Made by a program: the position numbers and the translations under genes. The notes beneath the pieces were generated by a model. That model made no database searches. It was not told where the DNA came from and saw only the letters and a list, made by a program, of their open reading frames with translations. A stretch of 64,000 bases of DNA from a virus, in IMG/VR virus record IMGVR_UViG_3300049215_000686, positions 62,001 to 126,000 of that record; one strand, 5' to 3'. Positions 6,248-60,719 of the stretch are shown in pieces (position 1 is the first letter of the stretch; the number at the start of each line of letters is the position of its first letter).

Positions 6248-6323
6248 TGGAGCCGCTGGACCGACTTGAACGGTCATCACAATCGTACCGGGATTGTGTT
6301 TTTACCAGTTAAACTACAGCGGC
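6248..6323 (-). tRNA. tRNA-Thr (GGT)
   Basis: A complete cloverleaf with acceptor GCCGCTG/CAGCGGC, encoded CCA and discriminator T. The anticodon stem CAATC/GATTG encloses CCGGTAC, giving anticodon GGT. Position 33 is C instead of the nearly universal U. First of three adjacent Thr isoacceptors that share U73. Confidence 0.85.
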
Positions 6324-6324
6324 A

Positions 6325-6410
6325 TGGAGCCGATAGGATGATTCGAACATCCGTGGGATCTCTCCGCTCGTTTACAAAACGAGTGCAATCGTCCTCTATG
6401 CGATATCGGC
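6325..6410 (-). tRNA. tRNA-Thr (TGT), with a long variable arm
   Basis: Acceptor GCCGATA/TATCGGC, T arm with TTCGAAT loop, encoded CCA, discriminator T. Anticodon arm CTCGT-TTTGTAA-ACGAG gives TGT by normal 5+7+5 geometry. The variable region is 14 nt (GGA-GAGA-TCC can pair), unusual for Thr and more like a class II tRNA. A one-base shift would read GTA (Tyr) but breaks the stem, and a normal tRNA-Tyr is present at 7445-7530. Confidence 0.75.
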
Positions 6411-6427
6411 AATAACATCGGCGAATT

Positions 6428-6501
6428 TGGAGCCTCGTGGCTGAATCGAACAGCCGATTGCTGAATACGAATCAGCAGTTATACCGTTTAACTAACGAGG
6501 C
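6428..6501 (-). tRNA. tRNA-Thr (CGT)
   Basis: Acceptor GCCTCGT/ACGAGGC, discriminator T, encoded CCA, anticodon stem GCTGA/TCAGC with loop TTCGTAT, anticodon CGT. With the GGT and TGT genes it would let the phage decode all Thr codons. Confidence 0.85.
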
Positions 6502-6516
6502 AAAGATCAGCAAATT

Positions 6517-6591
6517 TGGTGCGCGAGCCGGGAATTGAACCCGAATCTCATGACTGGCAGTCACGCATCATAGCCTTTAGACCACTCACGC
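6517..6591 (-). tRNA. tRNA-Gly (GCC)
   Basis: Acceptor GCGTGAG/CTCGCGC (one G-U pair), discriminator A, encoded CCA, anticodon loop CTGCCAG giving GCC, T loop TTCAATT. Confidence 0.85.
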
Positions 6592-6593
6592 AT

Positions 6594-6668
6594 TGGACCG
6601 GGTAGCGGGAATCGAACCCGCGAATCGACGTTGGAAGCGTCGCGTGTTACCACTAGCACTACACCCGG
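6594..6668 (-). tRNA. tRNA-Gly (TCC)
   Basis: Acceptor CCGGGTG/TACCCGG, T arm GCGGG-TTCGATT-CCCGC, anticodon arm CGACG-CTTCCAA-CGTCG giving TCC, encoded CCA. It starts with C1 and lies 2 nt from the neighbouring Gly gene. Confidence 0.88.
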
Positions 6669-6727
6669 AAAGAAAACTATCTTTTACAAAATCCCCCATT
6701 TTGGATAAAATAGTTTCCATTTTTAAA

Positions 6728-6808
6728 TGGCGGGGTACACGGAAGTCGAATCCGTCTGATCTCTCGCGTGACAGGCGAGTGGCCACTCCCATCGCAGCCC
6801 CGTACCCC
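6728..6808 (-). tRNA. tRNA-Asp (GTC)
   Basis: Acceptor GGGGTAC/GTACCCC, anticodon arm CTCGC-CTGTCAC-GCGAG giving GTC, discriminator G (the usual Asp base), encoded CCA. The D arm is longer than usual (81 nt in total). Confidence 0.88.
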
Positions 6809-6809
6809 A

Positions 6810-6849
6810 AAAACAAAAACCCCAGGAACCTTTCGGCACCTGGGGTTTG
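6810..6849 (-). terminator. Rho-independent terminator after mini-ORF 1
   Basis: CCCCAGG and CCTGGGG form a 7-bp stem around a 12-nt loop. On the minus strand it is followed by TTTTTGTTTTT. It ends the short transcript that starts near 6952, so the tRNA genes further left need another promoter or read-through. Confidence 0.75.
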
Positions 6850-6874
6850 GAAACTTTTTGTTATTAAGCAAAAG

Positions 6875-6952
6875 TTACACAATCACCCCAGGAAGATTTG
6901 TATCTCCGTCCGTACCGGTTCCAGTGATGGTGTTTGTAATGAATTTGCTCAT
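6875..6952 (-). CDS. Near-leaderless mini-ORF 1 (25 aa)
   Basis: Reads MSKFITNTITGTGTDGDTNL followed by PGVIV. The ATG lies 7 nt downstream of a -10 box (TATTAT, extended by GG) and a strong terminator follows within about 65 nt, so it forms a complete tiny transcription unit in the tRNA array. It could also be a small RNA. Compare the similar unit at 8977-9057. Confidence 0.45.
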   Translation of the reverse strand: MSKFITNTITGTGTDGDTNLPGVIV

Positions 6953-6957
6953 ATGTT

Positions 6958-6966
6958 TATAATACC
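6958..6966. promoter_or_regulatory. Bidirectional extended -10 promoter
   Basis: TTTATAATACC reads TATAAT on plus (6958-6963) and GGTATTAT on minus (-10 at 6959-6964). ATG codons lie 6 nt downstream on plus (6970) and 6 nt downstream on minus (6952), so both transcripts would begin at or next to the start codon. Confidence 0.5.
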
Positions 6967-7002
6967 AAAATGAGTTCAGACCCACAACGGTATAGTACAG
7001 AT

Positions 7003-7194
7003 ATGCCTGACATTACCATGTGCGACAATGAAAAATGTGCGCTGCGGCAAGACTGTTACCGCTTTACGGCTCAGCCTTCTCGATTTCAGTCTTATGCCCA
7101 TTTTGAGCCCCTAGACGAAACATGTTGCGATCATTTCTGGTGCAACAGTTCAGAAAAATTGGCACCGGACACAGGAGTCGAACCCGTTTCTTGA
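7003..7194 (+). CDS. Small Cys-rich, probably zinc-binding phage protein
   Basis: Reads from MPDITMCDNEKCALRQDCYR; an in-frame ATG at 6970 would add 11 residues. The spacing ITMC-x4-C-x4-C-YR followed by FxP and a C-terminal CCDHFWC is a pattern of small phage proteins of unknown function. A -10 box TATAGT at 6991-6996 sits 6 nt before ATG 7003, so a leaderless start is possible. The last 11 codons run antisense through tRNA-Trp, suggesting that the tRNA gene replaced the original 3' end. Confidence 0.65.
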   Translation: MPDITMCDNEKCALRQDCYRFTAQPSRFQSYAHFEPLDETCCDHFWCNSSEKLAPDTGVEPVS

Positions 7195-7230
7195 ATTTTG
7201 GAGGTTCAATTGCGCCCCGCGCTATCCGGT
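7160..7230 (-). tRNA. tRNA-Trp (CCA)
   Basis: Acceptor ACCGGAT/GTCCGGT with A1-U72 and discriminator G as in E. coli tRNA-Trp, T arm with TTCGACT, anticodon loop CTCCAAA giving CCA. Odd points: a very short D arm (CGC-GGGG-CGC) and a C-A mismatch closing the anticodon stem. Confidence 0.75.
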
Positions 7231-7242
7231 GTCTTATCCCTT

Positions 7243-7271
7243 ATAGGTAATAAACTGGCTTTATAACCTAT
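7243..7271. repeat. Imperfect inverted repeat (possible operator)
   Basis: ATAGGTAATAAA and TTTATAACCTAT form a 12-bp inverted repeat with one mismatch and a 5-nt spacer between tRNA-Phe and tRNA-Trp. It contains TATA-like blocks, so it may be a promoter or operator for tRNA transcription. Confidence 0.35.
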
Positions 7272-7280
7272 GGGTAATAA

Positions 7281-7358
7281 TGGTGCCGCAGATCCGAATC
7301 GAACGGATATTATGTCTGATCTTCAGTCAGATGCCATGACCACGTAGGCGACTGCGGC
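7281..7358 (-). tRNA. tRNA-Phe (GAA)
   Basis: Acceptor GCCGCAG/CTGCGGC, anticodon arm TCTGA-CTGAAGA-TCAGA giving GAA, T loop GTTCGAT, discriminator A, encoded CCA. Confidence 0.9.
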
Positions 7359-7363
7359 AAATT

Positions 7364-7439
7364 TGGTGGACCGACCCGGACTTGAACCGGGAATCCCTCG
7401 GTGCAAGCGAGGAGTTTTACCAATTAACACTATCAGCCC
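7364..7439 (-). tRNA. tRNA-Ala (TGC)
   Basis: Acceptor GGGCTGA/TCGGTCC (two G-U pairs; no G3-U70 on the usual strand order, here G3 faces U70), anticodon arm CCTCG-CTTGCAC-CGAGG giving TGC, discriminator A, encoded CCA. Confidence 0.87.
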
Positions 7440-7444
7440 AATTT

Positions 7445-7530
7445 TGGTCGGAGGAGCAGGACTCGAACCTGCGAAGCCCAAAGACGCGTGATTTACAGTC
7501 ACGTGGGTTAGCCGCTCCCACCATCCTCCG
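7445..7530 (-). tRNA. tRNA-Tyr (GTA), class II
   Basis: Acceptor CGGAGGA/TCCTCCG, anticodon loop CTGTAAA giving GTA, 14-15 nt variable arm as expected for bacterial tRNA-Tyr, T arm GCAGG-TTCGAGT-CCTGC, discriminator A, encoded CCA. Its first 23 nt overlap the 3' end of the protein gene at 7508-7735 and supply that gene's stop codon. Confidence 0.9.
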
Positions 7531-7735
7531 AAATTTTCACATCAACTCCGAGTTCAAACCATCCCTTCCAGTGTTCGCCATTCCAAGTTTTTCTCTCAGA
7601 CTGAAATAGCCGCTTATTATCCCGAGATCTTCCTCCAAAAATCAAGAACATGTATTCTCCGTGTTCATGAATCCGGTTTTTGGCTCGATGGCTAATTGGG
7701 ATGAGTTTGACTTTGATACCTTTGTCCATTTCCAT
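7508..7735 (-). CDS. Hypothetical protein ending inside tRNA-Tyr
   Basis: A 75-aa basic protein (MEMDKGIKVKLIPISHRAKN). No domain is recognised. It overlaps the preceding gene by 94 nt in another frame and ends at a TAA inside the 5' part of tRNA-Tyr, so the last residues (EDGGSG) are encoded by the tRNA gene. There is no strong ribosome binding site; coupling to the upstream gene is likely. Confidence 0.55.
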   Translation of the reverse strand: MEMDKGIKVKLIPISHRAKNRIHEHGEYMFLIFGGRSRDNKRLFQSERKTWNGEHWKGWFELGVDVKISEDGGSG

Positions 7736-7914
7736 AAATCACTTTTCCGAATTGAAATCGCCTGCATCCGTCCTTGATAAACTCGTAAAGTCCGGTTCCA
7801 ATAACTCACGATCAAGGAAATCAGTTCGTCACTTTCTCCAAGAACTTTTTGAATTTCGAAATCAATATCGAGACAACTCATGTGTCGATAAAGATGGCCA
7901 GATTTAATTTTCAT
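7642..7914 (-). CDS. Conserved-looking hypothetical phage protein
   Basis: A 90-aa protein whose first ~66 residues (MKIKSGHLYRHMSCLDIDFE, then SYWNRTLRVYQG) look like a globular domain with conserved YRH, CLD and YWNR motifs. Function unknown. The start overlaps the stop of the upstream basic protein gene. The last ~30 residues overlap the downstream gene in another frame and look less protein-like. Confidence 0.6.
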   Translation of the reverse strand: MKIKSGHLYRHMSCLDIDFEIQKVLGESDELISLIVSYWNRTLRVYQGRMQAISIRKSDLWKWTKVSKSNSSQLAIEPKTGFMNTENTCS

Positions 7915-8104
7915 TTTTTGGCTTCCATCGCGTCTTTCGATACCGTTTCCAAGATCTCCGAGACCTAGACCATCCTCGCTTTGAATTTTCTCCTCGATTC
8001 GGCGGACAAATAGGGCATCGAAGTTTTACCCGCGAAGCCTTCTTATAAACCGCGCTATTGGTCGTTCCCGTTAATTCGTTATGATTTCGTCTTTTATCAC
8101 CCAT
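7904..8104 (-). CDS. Small basic protein with a CxxC pair
   Basis: A 66-aa protein, very rich in Arg and Lys, with one CPIC motif and no second Cys pair. GGGAGG lies about 11 nt upstream of ATG 8104. It heads a three-gene run (8104 to 7508) between tRNA-Lys and tRNA-Tyr. A nucleic-acid-binding role is plausible from the charge. Confidence 0.55.
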   Translation of the reverse strand: MGDKRRNHNELTGTTNSAVYKKASRVKLRCPICPPNRGENSKRGWSRSRRSWKRYRKTRWKPKNEN

Positions 8105-8161
8105 TGCATGAATCCTCCCTAGTGGAAGGTCATGCGTCCTCGAATGTGCTTCATAATTTTT

Positions 8162-8236
8162 TGGTGGGGCCGAAGAGAATCGAACTCTTTCCTGGCAGAT
8201 TAAAAGTCTGCGGTGCCGCCTTTACACCACGACCCC
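8162..8236 (-). tRNA. tRNA-Lys (TTT)
   Basis: Acceptor GGGGTCG/CGGCCCC, anticodon arm GCAGA-CTTTTAA-TCTGC giving TTT, T loop TTCGATT, discriminator A, encoded CCA. Confidence 0.9.
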
Positions 8237-8240
8237 AATT

Positions 8241-8315
8241 TGGCGGGATCGCAGAGACTTGAACTCTGATACACGGATTAAGAGTCCGCTGTAATAGCCG
8301 TTATACGACGATCCC
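8241..8315 (-). tRNA. tRNA with CTT anticodon on an Asn-like body
   Basis: Acceptor GGGATCG/CGATCCC, discriminator G, encoded CCA. The anticodon arm GCGGA-CTCTTAA-TCCGT gives CTT (Lys). The arm differs from the E. coli tRNA-Asn arm (GCGGACTGTTAATCCGT) at one base, and G73 is the Asn discriminator, while Lys tRNAs usually have A73. It may be a Lys tRNA derived from Asn, or a tRNA charged ambiguously. Confidence 0.8.
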
Positions 8316-9377: not shown

Positions 9378-9800
9378 AATGGTGGAGGTGGGCGGAATTG
9401 AACCGCCGTCCAGAATCTTTCAGTCACCAAGTCATTCACACGCATATCTGGTTTTACGATCCAGCAATCAGGGTACGACCCGTTTTACCGAGTCTCCACC
9501 ACTTGGTTTATGTCCAAGAACAGGAGAGGCGTTTCCGCGTCCACCAGCCGCCAGTTTAACGTCTCGACGACCCGACGTTTTTGCCTTTCTTCTGTTTCTC
9601 GGCTCAGGCAGCCTCATTGTTTCCTAACCTAGGTCAGGCTACAAGGCGGAGATCAGCCTTACGGCTGAAATCCACGCGAACGACGTTGTCATTAGCATTT
9701 GTTGTTTGCATCTTTGTTTCCGGGGAATCCCCAAGGCAGCCTCATGCTCTGCCTGCGCGCACTCAATTTCCTCGTTATCCTGTCGAAACCTGTCACCCCC
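9378..9800 (-). ncRNA. ssrA: Phage-encoded tmRNA (ssrA)
   Basis: Transfer-messenger RNA for ribosome rescue. The 5' end GGGGGTGACAGGTTTCGAC and the 3' end with T arm GGCGG-TTCAATT-CCGCC and encoded CCA form the tRNA-like half (acceptor GGGGGTG/CACCTCC). The 423-nt length and pseudoknot-like repeats between are typical. The best tag frame is 9696-9634: ANDNVVRVDFSRKADLRLVA then TGA, 20 residues ending in LVA. Another frame (GCA AAC AAC AAA TGC TAA) would give only ANNKC and is less likely. Confidence 0.92.
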
Positions 9801-13406: not shown

Positions 13407-14921
13407 TTAGGCGACTCCGATGTTCTCGATGACGCCGCTCTTACGAGGGGCGAAGAGAATCAATGCGCCAGCAAGCCAGAGCAAGAATTCCTTAGCGGTA
13501 GAAATCGCCGCTAGATTGATTTTGAGCAGTGGGCTCAATTGTCTCCAAATCATCACTTCCGGACGCATATCCAGCATATAAGCCGAAGCAGCACCAGGAG
13601 CGCGATTTCCAAGATCCGTGAACAGCGTAGCGCTGCCGGTTCTTGCGACATAACCGATGAACAACGCCGAGCCAGTGCCCAAGTTGTTCGTGCGGTAAAC
13701 CGCGTAATGAGTCGGCTGATTGCCAGCAGACGGATCGGAGATCTTGAAGGTAACATTGTTACCATCCGTAGCGATCGTAACCGCTACAGAAGTAATGAAT
13801 GCAGCGCTTTCGCCCTGCTCATTCACCGAGGTAACGCTGTAGACGTAAACGTCACCAGCCTTCAATTTCGAACTAGCCGCAGTCTGATCCATGCTGTTTC
13901 CAGAACCCGCAGCGACCGAAGCCGCAGCAGCGTTCTTGAGGTCAGCAGGAGCGCCAGGCACACCCATACGATCCGGATTCGCCTTGGTTCCCTGTTTTTG
14001 TTTCAGGAACACGTTCGGACGAAGTTGAATTCCTCCAGCCGTGGTCACCATCTCGCGAACGATATAACCCGCACGGCCACTTTCGACGCCGAGTTGGTTT
14101 ACGCGTTCTTTTGGATAGAACTGCTTAATGAAATCCGACAACTGCTTCGGAGGAAGGTGCAATTCCGAAGGGCGACCGAAGTTCTCAACCAACACGTTGG
14201 CTTCGAATTCGATATCGCTTTCGTTCAGAATGTCCCCATCTTTCGAAAGGATTACGGTCTGACTTCCGCCGTATCCATCAAAAGCGCGGGCCTGAGCAGC
14301 GAAATCACCATCGCCAGAACGGATCTGTTGCTCGATACCATTCAGGTTAAGATTCTGCATCTTGATCGGGATCGCAGCGACCAATCCATCGAACTTACCG
14401 GCGTTGCTGTAATCAGCATTACCTTTGTAAAGTTCGCGCTCAAGTTTCTCAAGCATCCAAAGCGTCCCGTTCTGGGTCTCAAGCGACTCGATGTCATTGC
14501 CGAAATTCTGGCGAACCAGAGTTGCAGCAAGCGAAACACCACGTCGGGTCGAGAAGAACATGACCTTTTGTGCATGCCGATTATACTCGGCGTCGTTCAT
14601 CACAGGCGAGCCGCTTTCAGGGATGTATGGCGAGCCACCATCACCGTAGGCGGTCGTGCGAACATATTGCTCAGCGAGCGAATATGCGCGATCTTGGCTA
14701 ATTGACGGCCACATGACCAAATTCGTCGCATCGTAAGTCACGCTTTTAAGCGTTCCATCAATGCTTTCCACACCCAAAGCACCACCACCCACCAATTGGG
14801 TAGGAGCACCAAGATAGCCATGACCCACCTGAAGAGTCTTTAACAACTCCTCACCCTGGTTCGAGTCCATCGCTTGCGATGCACCGGCTCCGATTTCTAC
14901 TGAAAAAAGATCATCAAACAT
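13407..14921 (-). CDS. Major capsid protein
   Basis: A 504-aa protein, the last gene of the head operon and the one with the best ribosome binding site (AGGAGGAAAACGTAA-ATG), as expected for a highly expressed virion protein. The N-terminal part (WPSISQDRAYSLAEQYVRTT, and FFSTRRGVSLAATLVRQNFG further on) resembles HK97-fold major head proteins of large siphoviruses. A C-terminal region (about residues 350-440; VYVYSVTSVNEQGESAAF) looks like an inserted fibronectin/Ig-like domain, probably displayed on the capsid. Assignment rests on motif feel and position between scaffold-like protein and terminator. Confidence 0.8.
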   Translation of the reverse strand: MFDDLFSVEIGAGASQAMDSNQGEELLKTLQVGHGYLGAPTQLVGGGALGVESIDGTLKSVTYDATNLVMWPSISQDRAYSLAEQYVRTTAYGDGGSPYIPESGSPVMNDAEYNRHAQKVMFFSTRRGVSLAATLVRQNFGNDIESLETQNGTLWMLEKLERELYKGNADYSNAGKFDGLVAAIPIKMQNLNLNGIEQQIRSGDGDFAAQARAFDGYGGSQTVILSKDGDILNESDIEFEANVLVENFGRPSELHLPPKQLSDFIKQFYPKERVNQLGVESGRAGYIVREMVTTAGGIQLRPNVFLKQKQGTKANPDRMGVPGAPADLKNAAAASVAAGSGNSMDQTAASSKLKAGDVYVYSVTSVNEQGESAAFITSVAVTIATDGNNVTFKISDPSAGNQPTHYAVYRTNNLGTGSALFIGYVARTGSATLFTDLGNRAPGAASAYMLDMRPEVMIWRQLSPLLKINLAAISTAKEFLLWLAGALILFAPRKSGVIENIGVA

Positions 14922-34797: not shown

Positions 34798-35327
34798 GAT
34801 TGTTCCCCTTCCTTAGGAAAATTTAAACTAGCATACTCTCCAAACAATTCTCTCGCCGCTCGATCATAAGCGTGAGCAGCATCTTCTTCTAAGATAAATA
34901 TACCTAAATGCTTCGTTTTCCATCTACCGGCTGTATAGCAAATAACTGCTTTCCATTTTTTATCAGCCTTAGACCAGCAAACACCCTTATATTTGGAAGC
35001 AGAATCCTGGCGTTTCCTAGAATTCCTCGCATTCTCTGCCCGTGTTGCGATTCTCAAATTGGATTTTTGATTATTCAAACCATTGCGGTCTTTGTGATCC
35101 AGAAAAACGTTTGGATCCGTGACTCCAAAAATTTCTCTATGCATTAAAACGAACTTTCTTACCCCATCAATATCAGAATGACGCCTTGCGTAAATGCCTC
35201 TTGGCCATTTTACAATATGCCATGTCCATCTCATTAAACGATCATAATCTTCATCATCAATAAGGACAGAAAATTCACCAAATTTTTTGCTATAAATCTT
35301 GATCTCTTTCATTATTTCAATTTCCAT
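34767..35327 (-). CDS. HNH-AP2 homing endonuclease
   Basis: A 186-aa protein: HNH domain with VFLDHKDRNGLNNQKSNLRI and ENARNSRKR, then an AP2 DNA-binding domain (SKYKGVCWSKADKKWKAVI, ending DRAARELFGEYASLNFP). The combination is typical of free-standing phage homing endonucleases. It lies between NAMPT and a hypothetical gene and may interrupt the original operon. Confidence 0.88.
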   Translation of the reverse strand: MEIEIMKEIKIYSKKFGEFSVLIDDEDYDRLMRWTWHIVKWPRGIYARRHSDIDGVRKFVLMHREIFGVTDPNVFLDHKDRNGLNNQKSNLRIATRAENARNSRKRQDSASKYKGVCWSKADKKWKAVICYTAGRWKTKHLGIFILEEDAAHAYDRAARELFGEYASLNFPKEGEQSCVIAKESTS

Positions 35328-36855
35328 GAACGTATCGAGCGTGAAGATCCCTTTTCATCGTTTTAATCTTGGAACTGAAAATTTCCTTAGGCATCGGAAA
35401 CGAGTGGAACTCCTCTCGGACGCGATTCCTAACTTCTCTAAAGTCTTCCCGGTAACATAAACCGCTGCCATCTATACCATCAAACCAAAGCACCAATTCA
35501 TCTTGTCCTGATTCATCTATTGATCGAACCGTCGGAAGAAGTTCGTGCCGATCACTCAGTTCCCGGACGATTTTAACCAATCCAGGCACCGAACCCTTCC
35601 CAGGCGTGTGGCTGAATTTCATCACCGGACGCTTTTGCTCTCCCACCGCACACAACTTCATAGTTGCCCCGAAGTTGTCTCGACTGAGGCAATTCCTTAA
35701 ATATCCGCCGATGCCATAGACCAAGCATCCGGCAGGATTAAACCCCTTTTTCAAAAGAGCCTCATTGATCTCTAAAATAGACTTAAATGTCATCCCATCG
35801 CCCTGGATCGCGCGTAAACAGGTCATACTGATCAGGCCATTTGAGTTTTTTACATAAAGCCCAGCATCAACTGCGGCCTCCAAAACATAGAGAATTTGCT
35901 CCAGAGGATCTCCTGAATCCGGACGAGCGACAATGACTCCTCCCGTCTCCTTTGCTTTTTTGGCGAGAGGAACTAGATAAGAATCCACTGCGGTATAAAA
36001 ATTGTAACAATCCGCGACATGAGAAGTGAATGTATTGGGCTCGGCGTAATAAAGGGCAAGATAGGAATCTTCTTCTTCATCGAATCCCTGAACAATGCGG
36101 TGAGCCAAAGCCTTAATCGAACATCCCCAAGGGGTTTCACCCGAGGCTTTCCAGGCAAGATAGGCAGCAACCGTTGTGTCGGTCCCAAAATGACTGGTCA
36201 AATGAGCCAGTCCCAGAACTTCACTTTCTTGAGGGCAGGATCCGGCACGATCGCCAAAATCATGTGTCATCAAGGCGGCCAGGATATTTAAGTCATTTTC
36301 ACTTAAATATCCTGGCGAATGCTCCTTGACTAATTTGCGGTTATAATCTAACCAGTGCCGCATAAGGGTGGCGCGCTCACTGGGTGCCCAAACTTGAAGG
36401 AGTTTGCTCTCGAAATAGCCAGCAAACTCCCCAAAACCATCCTTGGCTTCGATTTGAATGACAGGCTCGCCCGGCAGGCAAGTTGCTCCGTCTTTCATCG
36501 CCCATATCCTTATGGGTATTAAACCTTTTTTCTCAGTAACAACGCGATCCCAAATCGTACGGTCGTATTTAAACGGGAGCGCGCCCGCATGGAAGGTCGA
36601 TAAAAACCGATCCGCTTCTTCTACCTCTTCCATGGTAACTGGCTTGCTAAAAAGATCAACTAAAATTCTTTGCAGACCGTGAAAAATAAAACGAGACTCA
36701 CATCCCAAGATCTCCATCCATTCAGGTCGCTTACGGAAGATCACCTGATAAGCCGAGTATTCTTTGGCCTTTGAAGATACATGGGGACCACTTCCAACCG
36801 TATAGGCATCTGCCAACAGAATCCTTGGGATTATATTGCCGTTTCCTTTGAGCAA
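35317..36855 (-). CDS. nadV: Nicotinamide phosphoribosyltransferase (NAMPT)
   Basis: Makes NMN from nicotinamide and PRPP, the first step of NAD+ salvage. 512 aa, close to human NAMPT. Recognisable blocks: start of barrel ADAYTVGSG, FHGLQRIL, HDFGDRAGSCPQESEVLGLA, GTDTTVAAYLAW, VARPDSGDPLEQIL, IQGDGMTFKSILEINEALL, YGIGGYL. It overlaps the NMN adenylyltransferase gene by 25 nt. The pair forms a NARP2-type NAD+ reconstitution pathway, known to counter NAD-depleting phage defences. Confidence 0.92.
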   Translation of the reverse strand: MLKGNGNIIPRILLADAYTVGSGPHVSSKAKEYSAYQVIFRKRPEWMEILGCESRFIFHGLQRILVDLFSKPVTMEEVEEADRFLSTFHAGALPFKYDRTIWDRVVTEKKGLIPIRIWAMKDGATCLPGEPVIQIEAKDGFGEFAGYFESKLLQVWAPSERATLMRHWLDYNRKLVKEHSPGYLSENDLNILAALMTHDFGDRAGSCPQESEVLGLAHLTSHFGTDTTVAAYLAWKASGETPWGCSIKALAHRIVQGFDEEEDSYLALYYAEPNTFTSHVADCYNFYTAVDSYLVPLAKKAKETGGVIVARPDSGDPLEQILYVLEAAVDAGLYVKNSNGLISMTCLRAIQGDGMTFKSILEINEALLKKGFNPAGCLVYGIGGYLRNCLSRDNFGATMKLCAVGEQKRPVMKFSHTPGKGSVPGLVKIVRELSDRHELLPTVRSIDESGQDELVLWFDGIDGSGLCYREDFREVRNRVREEFHSFPMPKEIFSSKIKTMKRDLHARYVHGN

Positions 36856-37739
36856 GAATATTTTTGAATAAGTTCCTGAAACAATTCTTTGTGGGTATCG
36901 ACCAGATTGGGAATCGACTCATGAGACACCGGAAACCATGAGACTTCTTGAAGATCGTCTCCGGCTTTCGGAACTCCGTCGAATAAGGTCGTAGCGAACA
37001 GTACAGTCGTAATTACCCCATCATCAGCATGCCGATAGCGCCAATCCCGATTCCGATGGCTGCAAACATATTCAAGATCATAAACATGAACACCGGTTTC
37101 TTCTTCGGCTTCTCTGGCAGCAGCGTCTTCTAATCGTTCATCTGATTGATCGACAAATCCTCCAGGAAAACACCAAAGAGTATTATTGGGTTTTTTCCCC
37201 AAAAGGACTTTGCCATCACGGATAATGGCGATATCAACCGTTGGAAAAACTCGCTGATAAGTATTCGCGTAAGCGTAAATTACTCCGGCCCGAAAATCGG
37301 CTGAAACCCGAATCCGATTGGCCGTGATTCTCCTCAATTCCGTCCCGCTTGTGGAATATTCGAGTTCGATCTCATGAGTAGGATACTTTCCTTTATAATG
37401 CGGAATAAAAGAATCACGCCCTCCATAAAGAACCACTCTCCCAATCGGGCAGGCCAATTGTACGATGGAATCGAGTTGCTGAGACCAAGAATCATCGGTC
37501 GGCATATCCGCCAATGGAGCGACCAAAATGTCTGAATAAGCCGCCTTAAGCATCTTCTCTCGTGTCGGATAATCCAAGGGATGACGCTTAGAGCCTAGGA
37601 CTTGTGAACAGCCCAATAGAACCAAAACCTGGCCGTGCTGATCGCGGATGTGTTCGATGAGTTTTCGATGCCCATCGTGAAGTTCTGGAACCTGAAAACG
37701 TACTACAATCACTCCTAATTGTATCGATCCTCCGATCAA
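36831..37739 (-). CDS. nadM: Bifunctional NMN adenylyltransferase / Nudix hydrolase
   Basis: Converts NMN and ATP to NAD+. The N-terminal domain (about 1-165) is a NadM-type nucleotidyltransferase with VIVVRFQVPELHDGHRKL (HxGH) and YSTSGTELRR. The C-terminal Nudix domain has the box GGFVDQSDERLEDAAAREAE then EETGV, usually an ADP-ribose pyrophosphatase. 302 aa, a length similar to KVP40 and bacterial NadM-Nudix. It overlaps the sigma-like gene by 4 nt. Confidence 0.92.
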   Translation of the reverse strand: MIGGSIQLGVIVVRFQVPELHDGHRKLIEHIRDQHGQVLVLLGCSQVLGSKRHPLDYPTREKMLKAAYSDILVAPLADMPTDDSWSQQLDSIVQLACPIGRVVLYGGRDSFIPHYKGKYPTHEIELEYSTSGTELRRITANRIRVSADFRAGVIYAYANTYQRVFPTVDIAIIRDGKVLLGKKPNNTLWCFPGGFVDQSDERLEDAAAREAEEETGVHVYDLEYVCSHRNRDWRYRHADDGVITTVLFATTLFDGVPKAGDDLQEVSWFPVSHESIPNLVDTHKELFQELIQKYSCSKETAI

Positions 37740-42112: not shown

Positions 42113-42335
42113 TTTTTGCGTCCTCTATGTCTTCATTGATCTCGACCCTATAATGCGAACTGCCCACCATCTCGCTTAAGATGTAGTTCAGTGCCCGCTC
42201 GGCTGTAACGACGATATTCTCTAATGATGTCTTAAACCGGTTGTTGCCGTCAAATTCAAAAACGTTCGGTTCGCGACGAGTCTCATTAGACCGAATCACC
42301 CATCCGTTTTGTGCTTCTTCAATTTCGATTCTCAC
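41982..42335 (-). CDS. Hypothetical protein downstream of the chaperonin
   Basis: A 117-aa protein. The first ~75 residues (MRIEIEEAQNGWVIRSNETR) form a plausible small alpha/beta domain; the rest, Ser/Pro-rich, lies over the DUF3307 gene. The start overlaps the GroEL stop by 4 nt. Co-expression with the chaperonin is likely. No domain recognised. Confidence 0.55.
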   Translation of the reverse strand: MRIEIEEAQNGWVIRSNETRREPNVFEFDGNNRFKTSLENIVVTAERALNYILSEMVGSSHYRVEINEDIEDAKNGINPRNMLSVESDISSISGLSSETLPGGFSPSTPVDAEKVFP

Positions 42336-44062
42336 CCAAGAGCCTCACTCTCAATGGCTTTCATCAGCCCTTCTTGCATCGCTTTTACCTGCTCGACGTT
42401 CTCAGTCCGTTCAAGAACAATCGCGCCACCCAGCGTCATAAGCAACTGAGCGACCGACAATGCATTTTCAAGGGCTGAAAGGGTAACTCGGGTTGGATCC
42501 ATGATCCCGCCAACCCACCACTCAACCAATTCACGCTTCAATGCATCGTATACATAAAAGTTATCAGTATCATTAACCGGAGGGCCAATTTGCTCTAAAA
42601 GAGATTTCACTTCGCCAATACCCGCGTTCTCCAAAATCCGAACAAACGGCTGTTTCAAAGCGTTCACAAAAATCGTGAATGGAGATTTGTTTTTTGAAGC
42701 GAAATAAATATCTTTTTCAAGATGATTTGCAATCAAAGCGAGTGTCGATCCACCACCGGGAACGACTCCCATCATCAAGGCCGACCTTACCGCACAAATT
42801 GCATCAGTCACCCGTGCGTGACGTTCTTTGGCTTCCAGTTGAGTCTTACCCCCCGCAAAGATCGTAGAGACTCCGCCCGTCAAGCGGCCAATACGGTAAC
42901 GAATGAGATCGCAATCAAACTCTGAAGCCCCTTGCATCTGCTTTTTAAGATCCGCGATCCTGCCCTCGACTCGTTCAAGTTCAGATTCCCCGATAATAAC
43001 GCCTTCGCTTCTTCCCAATTTCATGGTTTCACAAAAACCAAGTTGCGGAAGTTGCGATTCAGTCAGAGGAGAGCCTTGGGGATCAAAGACAAAGCCGCCC
43101 GTATAAGCCGCCACATCATGCAAAAACTCACTTCGACCATTGGCTTGGCCATTTCGTGGAGTAATCACGGGAACAACCGTAAGAGTTCCCCGACGAAAGT
43201 TCTGTGCCATCATTTTAAGGACTTGATCACTGAAGCGGTGACTGAACACAATCAAAGGGGCTTTAATTGATCGACCAGCGGAATCGAGTTCAGATCCAAC
43301 TCTTTGCATCAGAGGAACAATAGTTCCAATATCATTGATTTCCCCGTCATAGAGGCACACATAGGCGCCTTCGACCATGCAATCGCCCAAATCGTTACGA
43401 TTCACAAAAGAAGGGCCTGCTGACCCCCCAAGATCGGTAAGTCCAGAATTGAAAGAAAAACCTTTTTCGAAAGAAACGCGGCATTCGGCGCCCGCTCCTT
43501 CTTCAGCGATACAGATGCCGTCTTCACCGACTCCCTCGACCGCTTCGGCCACTGCCTGAGCAATTTCAGTGTCTCCATTGGCGCTAATCAAAGCCACATG
43601 CTCGATCGCTTTTTTGGCTTCCTCTTTGGCAAGATCTCGGATGGATACCGATTTTTCAAGGATCGCGGGGCGGATTCTTAAATTGTAAATGTTTTTCAAT
43701 TCACGAGAAAGAAGTTGCGGAGAATATCCAGGATTTGCCTCTAAGAATTTTTGGCCTTCTTCAACCAAAGCCGCGCCTAAAACAATGGCCGTGGTCGTTC
43801 CATCACCAGCATCTCGAACCGTTCTTTCACAAATTTCAATCGCAGAGCGAGCAACGACATCTTCGAGATCTCCTGATCCCTGAAAATGACGCGCAACAGT
43901 AACGCCGTCTTTTGTAGATAAAGGAGGCCGATTTTCAACTTCCAGAAGAATGGGTCTGCCGCCCGGGCCGAGAGTCGCTGCCACGATCTGGGAGAGATCC
44001 TGAATCGCCTTCAGAACAATCTTCTTCGTCGCTTCGTTGCCATGATAAGTCTTCATTTTCAT
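42332..44062 (-). CDS. groEL: Phage GroEL-like chaperonin
   Basis: A 576-aa group I chaperonin from ATG 44062 (the frame is open to 44119 but that extension lies over the methyltransferase gene). Motifs: AATLGPGGRPILLE, KDGVTVARH, GDGTTTAIVLGAAL near the N-terminus, apical domain, and VPGGGSTLALI plus DPTRVTLSALENA near the C-terminus. It lacks the GGM tail. No GroES gene was found in the window, so it may use the host co-chaperonin or act alone, as other phage chaperonins do. Likely folds virion proteins. Confidence 0.92.
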   Translation of the reverse strand: MKMKTYHGNEATKKIVLKAIQDLSQIVAATLGPGGRPILLEVENRPPLSTKDGVTVARHFQGSGDLEDVVARSAIEICERTVRDAGDGTTTAIVLGAALVEEGQKFLEANPGYSPQLLSRELKNIYNLRIRPAILEKSVSIRDLAKEEAKKAIEHVALISANGDTEIAQAVAEAVEGVGEDGICIAEEGAGAECRVSFEKGFSFNSGLTDLGGSAGPSFVNRNDLGDCMVEGAYVCLYDGEINDIGTIVPLMQRVGSELDSAGRSIKAPLIVFSHRFSDQVLKMMAQNFRRGTLTVVPVITPRNGQANGRSEFLHDVAAYTGGFVFDPQGSPLTESQLPQLGFCETMKLGRSEGVIIGESELERVEGRIADLKKQMQGASEFDCDLIRYRIGRLTGGVSTIFAGGKTQLEAKERHARVTDAICAVRSALMMGVVPGGGSTLALIANHLEKDIYFASKNKSPFTIFVNALKQPFVRILENAGIGEVKSLLEQIGPPVNDTDNFYVYDALKRELVEWWVGGIMDPTRVTLSALENALSVAQLLMTLGGAIVLERTENVEQVKAMQEGLMKAIESEALG

Positions 44063-44702
44063 AATCGCCTGACTCCATTGAGTTTTTTGCGTTTCTGGCG
44101 GAGTTTTGCAGCCCACCATCGATATATTCCCAGCCTAAAAACTTACACGCATCGCGAATCCCAGGGTTACCATACGGATCCAGAACCCGATCACCTGGTT
44201 GAAGATCGGCGAGTTGTCCGCAATTGAGGACTAGAGCCGCCGGCAAAAATCGTCGATCCCGCCTGTCATTCCTTAACGGCCAGTGATCTCCAATACAGGT
44301 TGCGTATTCGTCTTCATCAAAAGTTCCTTCGCGCCCTTCAAAACCTTTTTTGATCTTCGTGGCGGCTTCGCGGTTAATGTGATAATTTTTTTGCTTCGCT
44401 AATACGCCCAAAACTTCCCAGGTATTCGTCAGTCTTTTTGATTTCGTCGTGACAATCGATCGATCCCGATACCAGCAAATTTTTGCCGCAATTACCAGCC
44501 CAGCGTCTTCCAATTCACAAAGGAGGCGCCCGCCGTTATTGGGGAATTCCACATGAATCGGCATCGAGACAAACATGAGCCCGCGAGCATCAACAAATTT
44601 TGCCATTTCCAAAACAGGCTTGATATCGAAGCGGGAGCAATAAGGAAGACGGGTGATTAATGCTTGGCAATTAGGGATCTTCATCTTGACATGGCGCTCC
44701 AT
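43935..44702 (-). CDS. Degenerate DNA methyltransferase-like protein
   Basis: A 255-aa protein. A motif-I like segment, DRVLDPYGNPGIRDACKFLG, and N-terminal RLPYCSRFDI recall N4/N6 DNA methyltransferases, but no clear DPPY is present, so it may be inactive or divergent. The last ~42 residues lie over the chaperonin start and are low-complexity; the real C-terminus may be shorter in function. Promoter at 44732-44737 is 29 nt upstream. Alternative start ATG 44684. Confidence 0.5.
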   Translation of the reverse strand: MERHVKMKIPNCQALITRLPYCSRFDIKPVLEMAKFVDARGLMFVSMPIHVEFPNNGGRLLCELEDAGLVIAAKICWYRDRSIVTTKSKRLTNTWEVLGVLAKQKNYHINREAATKIKKGFEGREGTFDEDEYATCIGDHWPLRNDRRDRRFLPAALVLNCGQLADLQPGDRVLDPYGNPGIRDACKFLGWEYIDGGLQNSARNAKNSMESGDYENEDLSWQRSDEEDCSEGDSGSLPDRGSDSRPGRQTHSSGS

Positions 44703-60479: not shown

Positions 60480-60621
60480 TGGAAGTCCCCCAGATTTCAC
60501 TTACAAGCACGCTGGTTCGAATCCAGCCTTCTCCGGGGAAACTCGGGAGAGGTAGTCTAGTGGTTAAGACAATCGAATGTTAATCGATCAAAAACGAAAG
60601 TGATATCAACTTGGACTTCCA
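60480..60621 (+). ncRNA. Y-RNA-like RNA 2 with a near-perfect permuted tRNA-Asn
   Basis: Outer stem TGGAAGTCC/GGACTTCCA, inner stem GATTTCACTT/AAGTGATATC, motif CTTACAAGC (60500-60508). Module: T arm GCTGG-TTCGAAT-CCAGC (60511-60527), acceptor 3' strand CTTCTCC (60528-60534), G at the discriminator position, short loop, acceptor 5' strand GGAGAGG (60546-60552), TA, D arm GTCT-AGTGGTTA-AGAC, anticodon arm ATCGA-ATGTTAA-TCGAT with GTT at 60579-60581. All tRNA parts are present but permuted, with the acceptor closed by a loop and no CCA. Confidence 0.75.
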
Positions 60622-60628
60622 TACAAGT

Positions 60629-60719
60629 TTGCCCGTCCCCTCTAATGACGCTTACAAGCAATCGTCCAATGGTAGGACATCTGTCACAAAAAAAAAGCGT
60701 TATTGACTTGGACGGGCAA
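60629..60719 (+). ncRNA. Y-RNA-like RNA 3, minimal module
   Basis: Outer stem TTGCCCGTCC/GGACGGGCAA, inner stem AATGACGCTT/AAGCGTTATT, motif CTTACAAGC (60651-60659). Only 91 nt: the module holds one D-arm-like hairpin GTCC-AATGGTA-GGAC and an A9 stretch, with no T arm or acceptor. The 3' strand GACTTGGAC matches RNA 2. Confidence 0.65.

Follow-up and report, generated by a model that had tools for sequence, protein, structure and literature searches.

A complete tmRNA gene in a large tailed phage

The window, by which we mean the whole 64,000-nucleotide stretch of DNA that was analysed, belongs to a 157,131-bp virus record and carries capsid, portal, DNA polymerase, helicase and nuclease genes; judging by these genes, the virus is a large tailed phage. 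The part of the window considered here contains the following genes:

9380–9800, minus strand: one-piece tmRNA, complete, with an encoded CCA (ARAGORN; Rfam RF00023; ACCA tail)
6248–8315, minus strand: cluster of 11 tRNA genes (ARAGORN), downstream of the tmRNA on the same strand
13407–14921, minus strand: major capsid protein gene (phrog_752), the query used for finding relatives

The tmRNA is matched by RF00023 with 87.1 bits against a gathering score of 47 (E 2e-32), the alignment spans all 374 model positions (1–374), and the coordinates given by ARAGORN are the same. It is the sole tmRNA over the cut-off in the record. The acceptor stem is of the alanine type (G3:U70), and the T arm and CCA end are present, as is standard for tmRNA. 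The first-pass annotation had placed a tmRNA at 9378–9800 and proposed a check by ARAGORN or a covariance model; both methods place a complete one-piece tmRNA there, and only the start at 9378 lies two bases too far.

Relatives of the phage were gathered by capsid, protease and polymerase searches. The tmRNA gene lies downstream of the capsid gene in the window and likewise in the related contigs L005, L015 and L016, which argues against the gene being degenerate or left behind by an integration, and yielding no working tmRNA. Although tmRNA genes are described as integration sites (PMC3029335), and the Rfam score is under the 132.1 bits of the L005 gene, such an origin is very improbable for a complete gene, with its acceptor stem intact and CCA present, that has tRNA and capsid genes as its neighbours within a phage record.

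At the far end of the window, an Rfam tRNA-like match (60546–60644, plus strand, 99 bases, 34.1 bits) without an ARAGORN call may be insert-bearing or spurious.

The tag reading frame

Four elements of the tmRNA are needed for the description of its tag:

9634–9696, minus strand: tag frame, 20 codons and UGA, encoding ANDNVVRVDFSRKADLRLVA (ARAGORN; common to L005)
9646–9675, minus strand: hairpin A, wholly within the tag frame, with a GUAA tetraloop (folds)
9652–9681, minus strand: codons 6–15 (VRVDFSRKAD), the excess over short Myxococcota tags such as ANDNVALRAVA (tag-end comparison; putative insertion)
9617–9644, minus strand: hairpin B, in which the last codons and the stop are paired as the 5' strand (folds; candidate true helix 5)

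The frame starts at a GCU resume codon (9694–9696), is preceded by the conserved A four bases ahead of that codon, and stays open to the stop at 9634–9636. In E. coli tmRNA, an A at this position is reported to fix the reading frame (PMC2481249). The encoded tag ends in LVA, and an end of the form [LVMIA][AV]A is expected in only about 0.23% of random frames of the same base composition. By comparison, the first 14 codons of frame +1 read LMTTSFAWISAVR and give no degron-like tag, and frame +2 opens with two stops. A resume codon elsewhere with a tag of standard length was looked for as the finding that would speak against the long frame, and ARAGORN keeps the long frame. The first-pass annotation had regarded the 20-residue frame as the most convincing one, and we consider this choice right because of the A at –4, the unfitness of frames +1 and +2, and the rarity of an LVA end by chance; the same frame is also found in L005. 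The assignment of ANDNVVRVDFSRKADLRLVA as the predicted tmRNA tag is thus supported by the rule for the resume codon, by the LVA ending and by this comparison.

An in-frame hairpin and the long tag of a related phage

Folding places the GCCGTAAGGC hairpin (hairpin A) entirely inside the tag frame of the window. For the 63-nt frame the folding energy is –24.6 kcal/mol, whereas shuffles average –14.45, and none of 200 shuffles folds as well. The tag frame of L005 likewise encloses a hairpin, which is not unusual for its composition, as 20 of 200 shuffles fold as well. In a published alignment, most tmRNA stop codons sit in the loop of helix 5 (PMC1168896). In minimum-energy folds, the stop of the window tag either pairs or falls outside any loop. 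This test is a weak one, as with the same method just 47 of 105 Myxococcota tmRNAs have their stop within a hairpin loop.

The long-tagged relative, L005, has a capsid protein 76% identical to that of the window and a 19-residue tag, DNSNVVRPAFGARAVSMAA, which is read in the same frame and ends in MAA. Shorter tags are found in other relatives: L015 and L016 (capsid 72% identical) carry one identical tmRNA with the 10-residue tag DNYVEELQAA, and L006 (capsid 67% identical) carries the 10-residue tag DEEQYFQAAA. A tmRNA over the cut-off is present in five of the 13 group records (G000 to G012, window included), most of which are fragments, so that a missing tmRNA says little; two of the five are long-tagged, and four of the five are distinct, as the tmRNAs of G004 and G005 are the same.

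These relatives bear on the question of whether the long tag is an accident, in which a base slip, either in the phage itself or in its assembly, shifted the frame off the stop in the helix 5 loop and let reading continue to the next stop. Hairpin A does hold a UAA in its loop (9659–9661), out of frame, as such an accident would leave it, and the usual position of tmRNA stops and the 10-residue tags in other contigs of the group point the same way. However, this UAA belongs to the GUAA tetraloop, and the frame that meets it would end in GFQP, which is not degron-like, whereas the actual stop is preceded by the LVA that chance would rarely supply. Furthermore, the independent contig L005 shows the same long frame with a degron-like end and with a different hairpin loop that lacks UAA. 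We therefore consider an accidental frame improbable.

Between the tags of the window and L005, an in-frame alignment needs only a one-codon gap, and the stops coincide. The 14 ungapped codons differ at 18 bases; seven residues are kept, five of them via synonymous change, and when the same 18 changes are placed at random, 0.6% of trials achieve both (joint chance 0.006). The block NVVR, common to the two tags, is kept in this way through synonymous codons. A small RNA hairpin was also considered as the source of the synonymous NVVR changes: both RNAs fold there, and the registers differ. Conservation of the peptide appears to be the better explanation.

In pairwise scores, the window and L005 tmRNAs are mutual best partners, whereas a tree of 15 tmRNAs, which is small and weak, sets the window beside L015 rather than L005 (support 84/87). 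The long frame is seen in only these two phages. An exact search of the tag DNA across viral contigs gave no match, and a degenerate search with the NVVR block gave eight stretches; an ARAGORN tmRNA coincides with just one of them, in the L005 contig. The helicase query found no relatives, and the DNA polymerase query found one further contig, L023, without a tmRNA match. A distant relative, L069 (G018), has a tmRNA match of 81 bits and no ARAGORN call.

Myxococcota-like ends of the tag

Among named phages, the capsid protein of the window is nearest, by identity and coverage, to that of Myxococcus phage Mx1, followed by those of SPO1-like phages. Mx1 contains a complete tmRNA (OR576727.2, 46646–47023; 1501–1877 of locus L325; 117.7 bits) with a 14-residue tag, VNTNVFGSQMMAAA. 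As in the window and L005, this tag starts with xNxNV; it differs from the window tag in its length and in its UAA, which Rfam assigns to the loop of helix 5, and it ends in AAA. The Mx1 record has no tmRNA annotation and shows a small gene, labelled 'Hef-like endonuclease', across the 3' end of the tmRNA.

The best bacterial match of the window tmRNA in the control set is that of an uncultured Myxococcales bacterium (L278, tag ANDNVELALAA), although whole-gene comparison does not single out Myxococcota, with scores of 199 for L278 and 197 for a Paraburkholderia. The tags were compared with those of a Myxococcota sample in which 154 of 188 genomes have a tmRNA over the cut-off; 110 loci were read, 107 were called by ARAGORN, and the 104 calls with a tag ending in A were used, L278 being removed from the set of other bacteria. 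Of the 104 Myxococcota tags, 17 have the xNxNV start, against none of 102 other bacterial tags, in a test that was devised after seeing the tags and in which related genomes are not independent, so that P values are only a guide. Among 204 bacterial tags (103 from Myxococcota and 101 others), the best at the tag ends is L456 (ANDNVALRAVA), which agrees with the window at 25 of 33 bases over its first five plus last six codons. Chromosomal tmRNAs of Myxococcota such as L456 and L343 (ANDNVELALAA) resemble the window tag in the ANDNV start and the LR-x-VA end, but have 11 residues and no inserted block, and none of the 104 sampled Myxococcota tags reaches 16 residues. Myxococcota is a candidate host phylum, suggested by capsid and tag comparison.

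The first-pass annotation had suggested that the overlap with a hairpin may explain the length of the tag. This proposal holds up, as the reading frame runs through the hairpin and the tag resembles short Myxococcota tags at either end. The comparison supports a model in which the extra length would be a hairpin-forming block, read in frame in the middle of the tag.

The hairpin could have another history. In a reading that we regard as possible but doubtful, hairpin A is helix 5 itself, whose loop stop was lost, and the ribosome reads through it to terminate in pseudoknot 2; only the history and anatomy would differ from the proposal below, and not the tag or what it does. In the Rfam alignment, hairpin A falls on helix 5 in both phages and the stop on the start of pseudoknot 2, but confidence there is low (digits 5–6 of 10). 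In addition, the end of the window frame, CUC CGC CUU GUA GCC UGA, resembles the helix 5 sequence of L456, CUC CGC GCU GUA GCU UAA (14 of 18 bases), which would place helix 5 at hairpin B. After the Myxococcota tag comparison, an inserted hairpin seems the better reading, while Rfam favours a read-through helix 5.

A proposed role in trans-translation

In trans-translation, a tmRNA charged with alanine binds SmpB and tags stalled chains for proteases. In the phage record, no match to the SmpB profile PF01668 (which detects 10 of 14 control genomes) and no match to ClpP was found; a phage SmpB, as expected of self-sufficient phage trans-translation, is thus not seen in the record, and all partners must therefore be those of the host. 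We favour, with a probability of about 0.7, an explanation in which the gene encodes a working phage tmRNA, whose Myxococcota-type tag has been lengthened by about nine in-frame hairpin codons and which uses the SmpB, synthetase and proteases of the host.

During infection, the host synthetase would load alanine onto the phage tmRNA, which would pair with host SmpB and enter stalled ribosomes, where alanine followed by ANDNVVRVDFSRKADLRLVA would be appended to the unfinished chain. The LVA end, a predicted degron, would then pass the tagged product to host Clp-type proteases. A host-type tag (ANDNV ... LR-x-VA) would have gained the hairpin codons by insertion, and the ribosome would have to open the hairpin while reading the tag. 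A more far-reaching proposal, which we advance tentatively and think rather unlikely as a whole, is that there is a lineage of Myxococcota phages in which a host-type tmRNA kept both tag ends and carries a coding hairpin between them, giving a lengthened degron and a template that is melted as it is read. If so, the longer tag would alter the speed at which host proteases grip tagged proteins during infection; alternatively, tagged products might bypass a host adaptor. The first-pass annotation had likewise suggested that a different tag could change what becomes of stalled proteins.

Long tags in other systems

The first-pass annotation took 8–12 residues as typical of tmRNA tags. With 20 residues, the window tag is indeed far above the usual 10, but tags of more than 12 residues are known in phages. 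The mycobacteriophage ET08 (species Bixzunavirus Bxz1) resembles the window in having a one-piece phage tmRNA in a tRNA cluster, a long tag (25 residues, ATDTDATVTDAEIEAFFAEEAAALV) and much pairing inside the frame; by contrast, its tag is unrelated, ends in ALV and shows no trace of a hairpin splitting a host-type tag. Among bacteria, the tmRNA tag of Mesoplasma florum is reportedly well over 20 residues. This long bacterial tag is read by a special Lon, and its end is unlike that of the window tag.

Long tags were also surveyed with one DNA pattern, counting anchored one-piece calls among the matches listed, which are an arbitrary sample; permuted-type calls, many of which look misframed, were left out. 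Among the matches listed, tags of at least 18 residues occur in 5 of 28 viral contigs and 2 of 104 bacterial genomes (P 0.005), and, with degron-like ends only, in 4 of 28 and 1 of 104, respectively (P 0.007), L123 and L290 being excluded from the latter count as likely misframed. We do not lean on this excess, because the stop of L148 and L161 is located within or next to a hairpin loop, with simply a longer stretch of tag before it, and because L163 may be misframed. Three viral contigs among the matches listed (L079, L148 and L161) have tags of 19 to 23 residues ending in AA or SA. A Candidatus Peribacteria locus (L223, 2160–2583) has a 26-residue tag, ANSEANRVAAYLASKLAPARLSAMAA, with pairing inside the frame.

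The current tmRNA database, where tags of 10 residues are the commonest, includes 79 unique phage sequences (PMC11915505); a tmRNA was reported in 402 of 18,146 phage genomes (PMC9004378), and a 2014 listing names ten phages with tmRNA (PMC4131195). In mycobacteriophage Wildcat, the tmRNA is described as the most highly expressed lytic gene (PMC7474061). Phage tmRNAs and long phage tags are thus already known, and the observation, although sound, is a modest one. For a host-type tag with a coding hairpin inserted into it, the literature passages searched, which are a narrow basis, gave no example. Phage tmRNAs are uncommon. The group, with its 10- and 20-residue tags, offers a natural test of tag length, and the tag of the candidate host phylum shares both ends with the window tag. 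The in-frame hairpin further suggests how a tag may grow without losing its degron.

Other genes in the window

At 35317–37739 on the minus strand, a nicotinamide phosphoribosyl transferase gene (phrog_448) adjoins a gene for a cytidylyltransferase-like and NUDIX protein, and the two likely form a phage NAD+ salvage pair. A 595-residue chaperonin of the GroEL (Cpn60) family is encoded at 42332–44119 on the minus strand (PF00118, E 7e-41).
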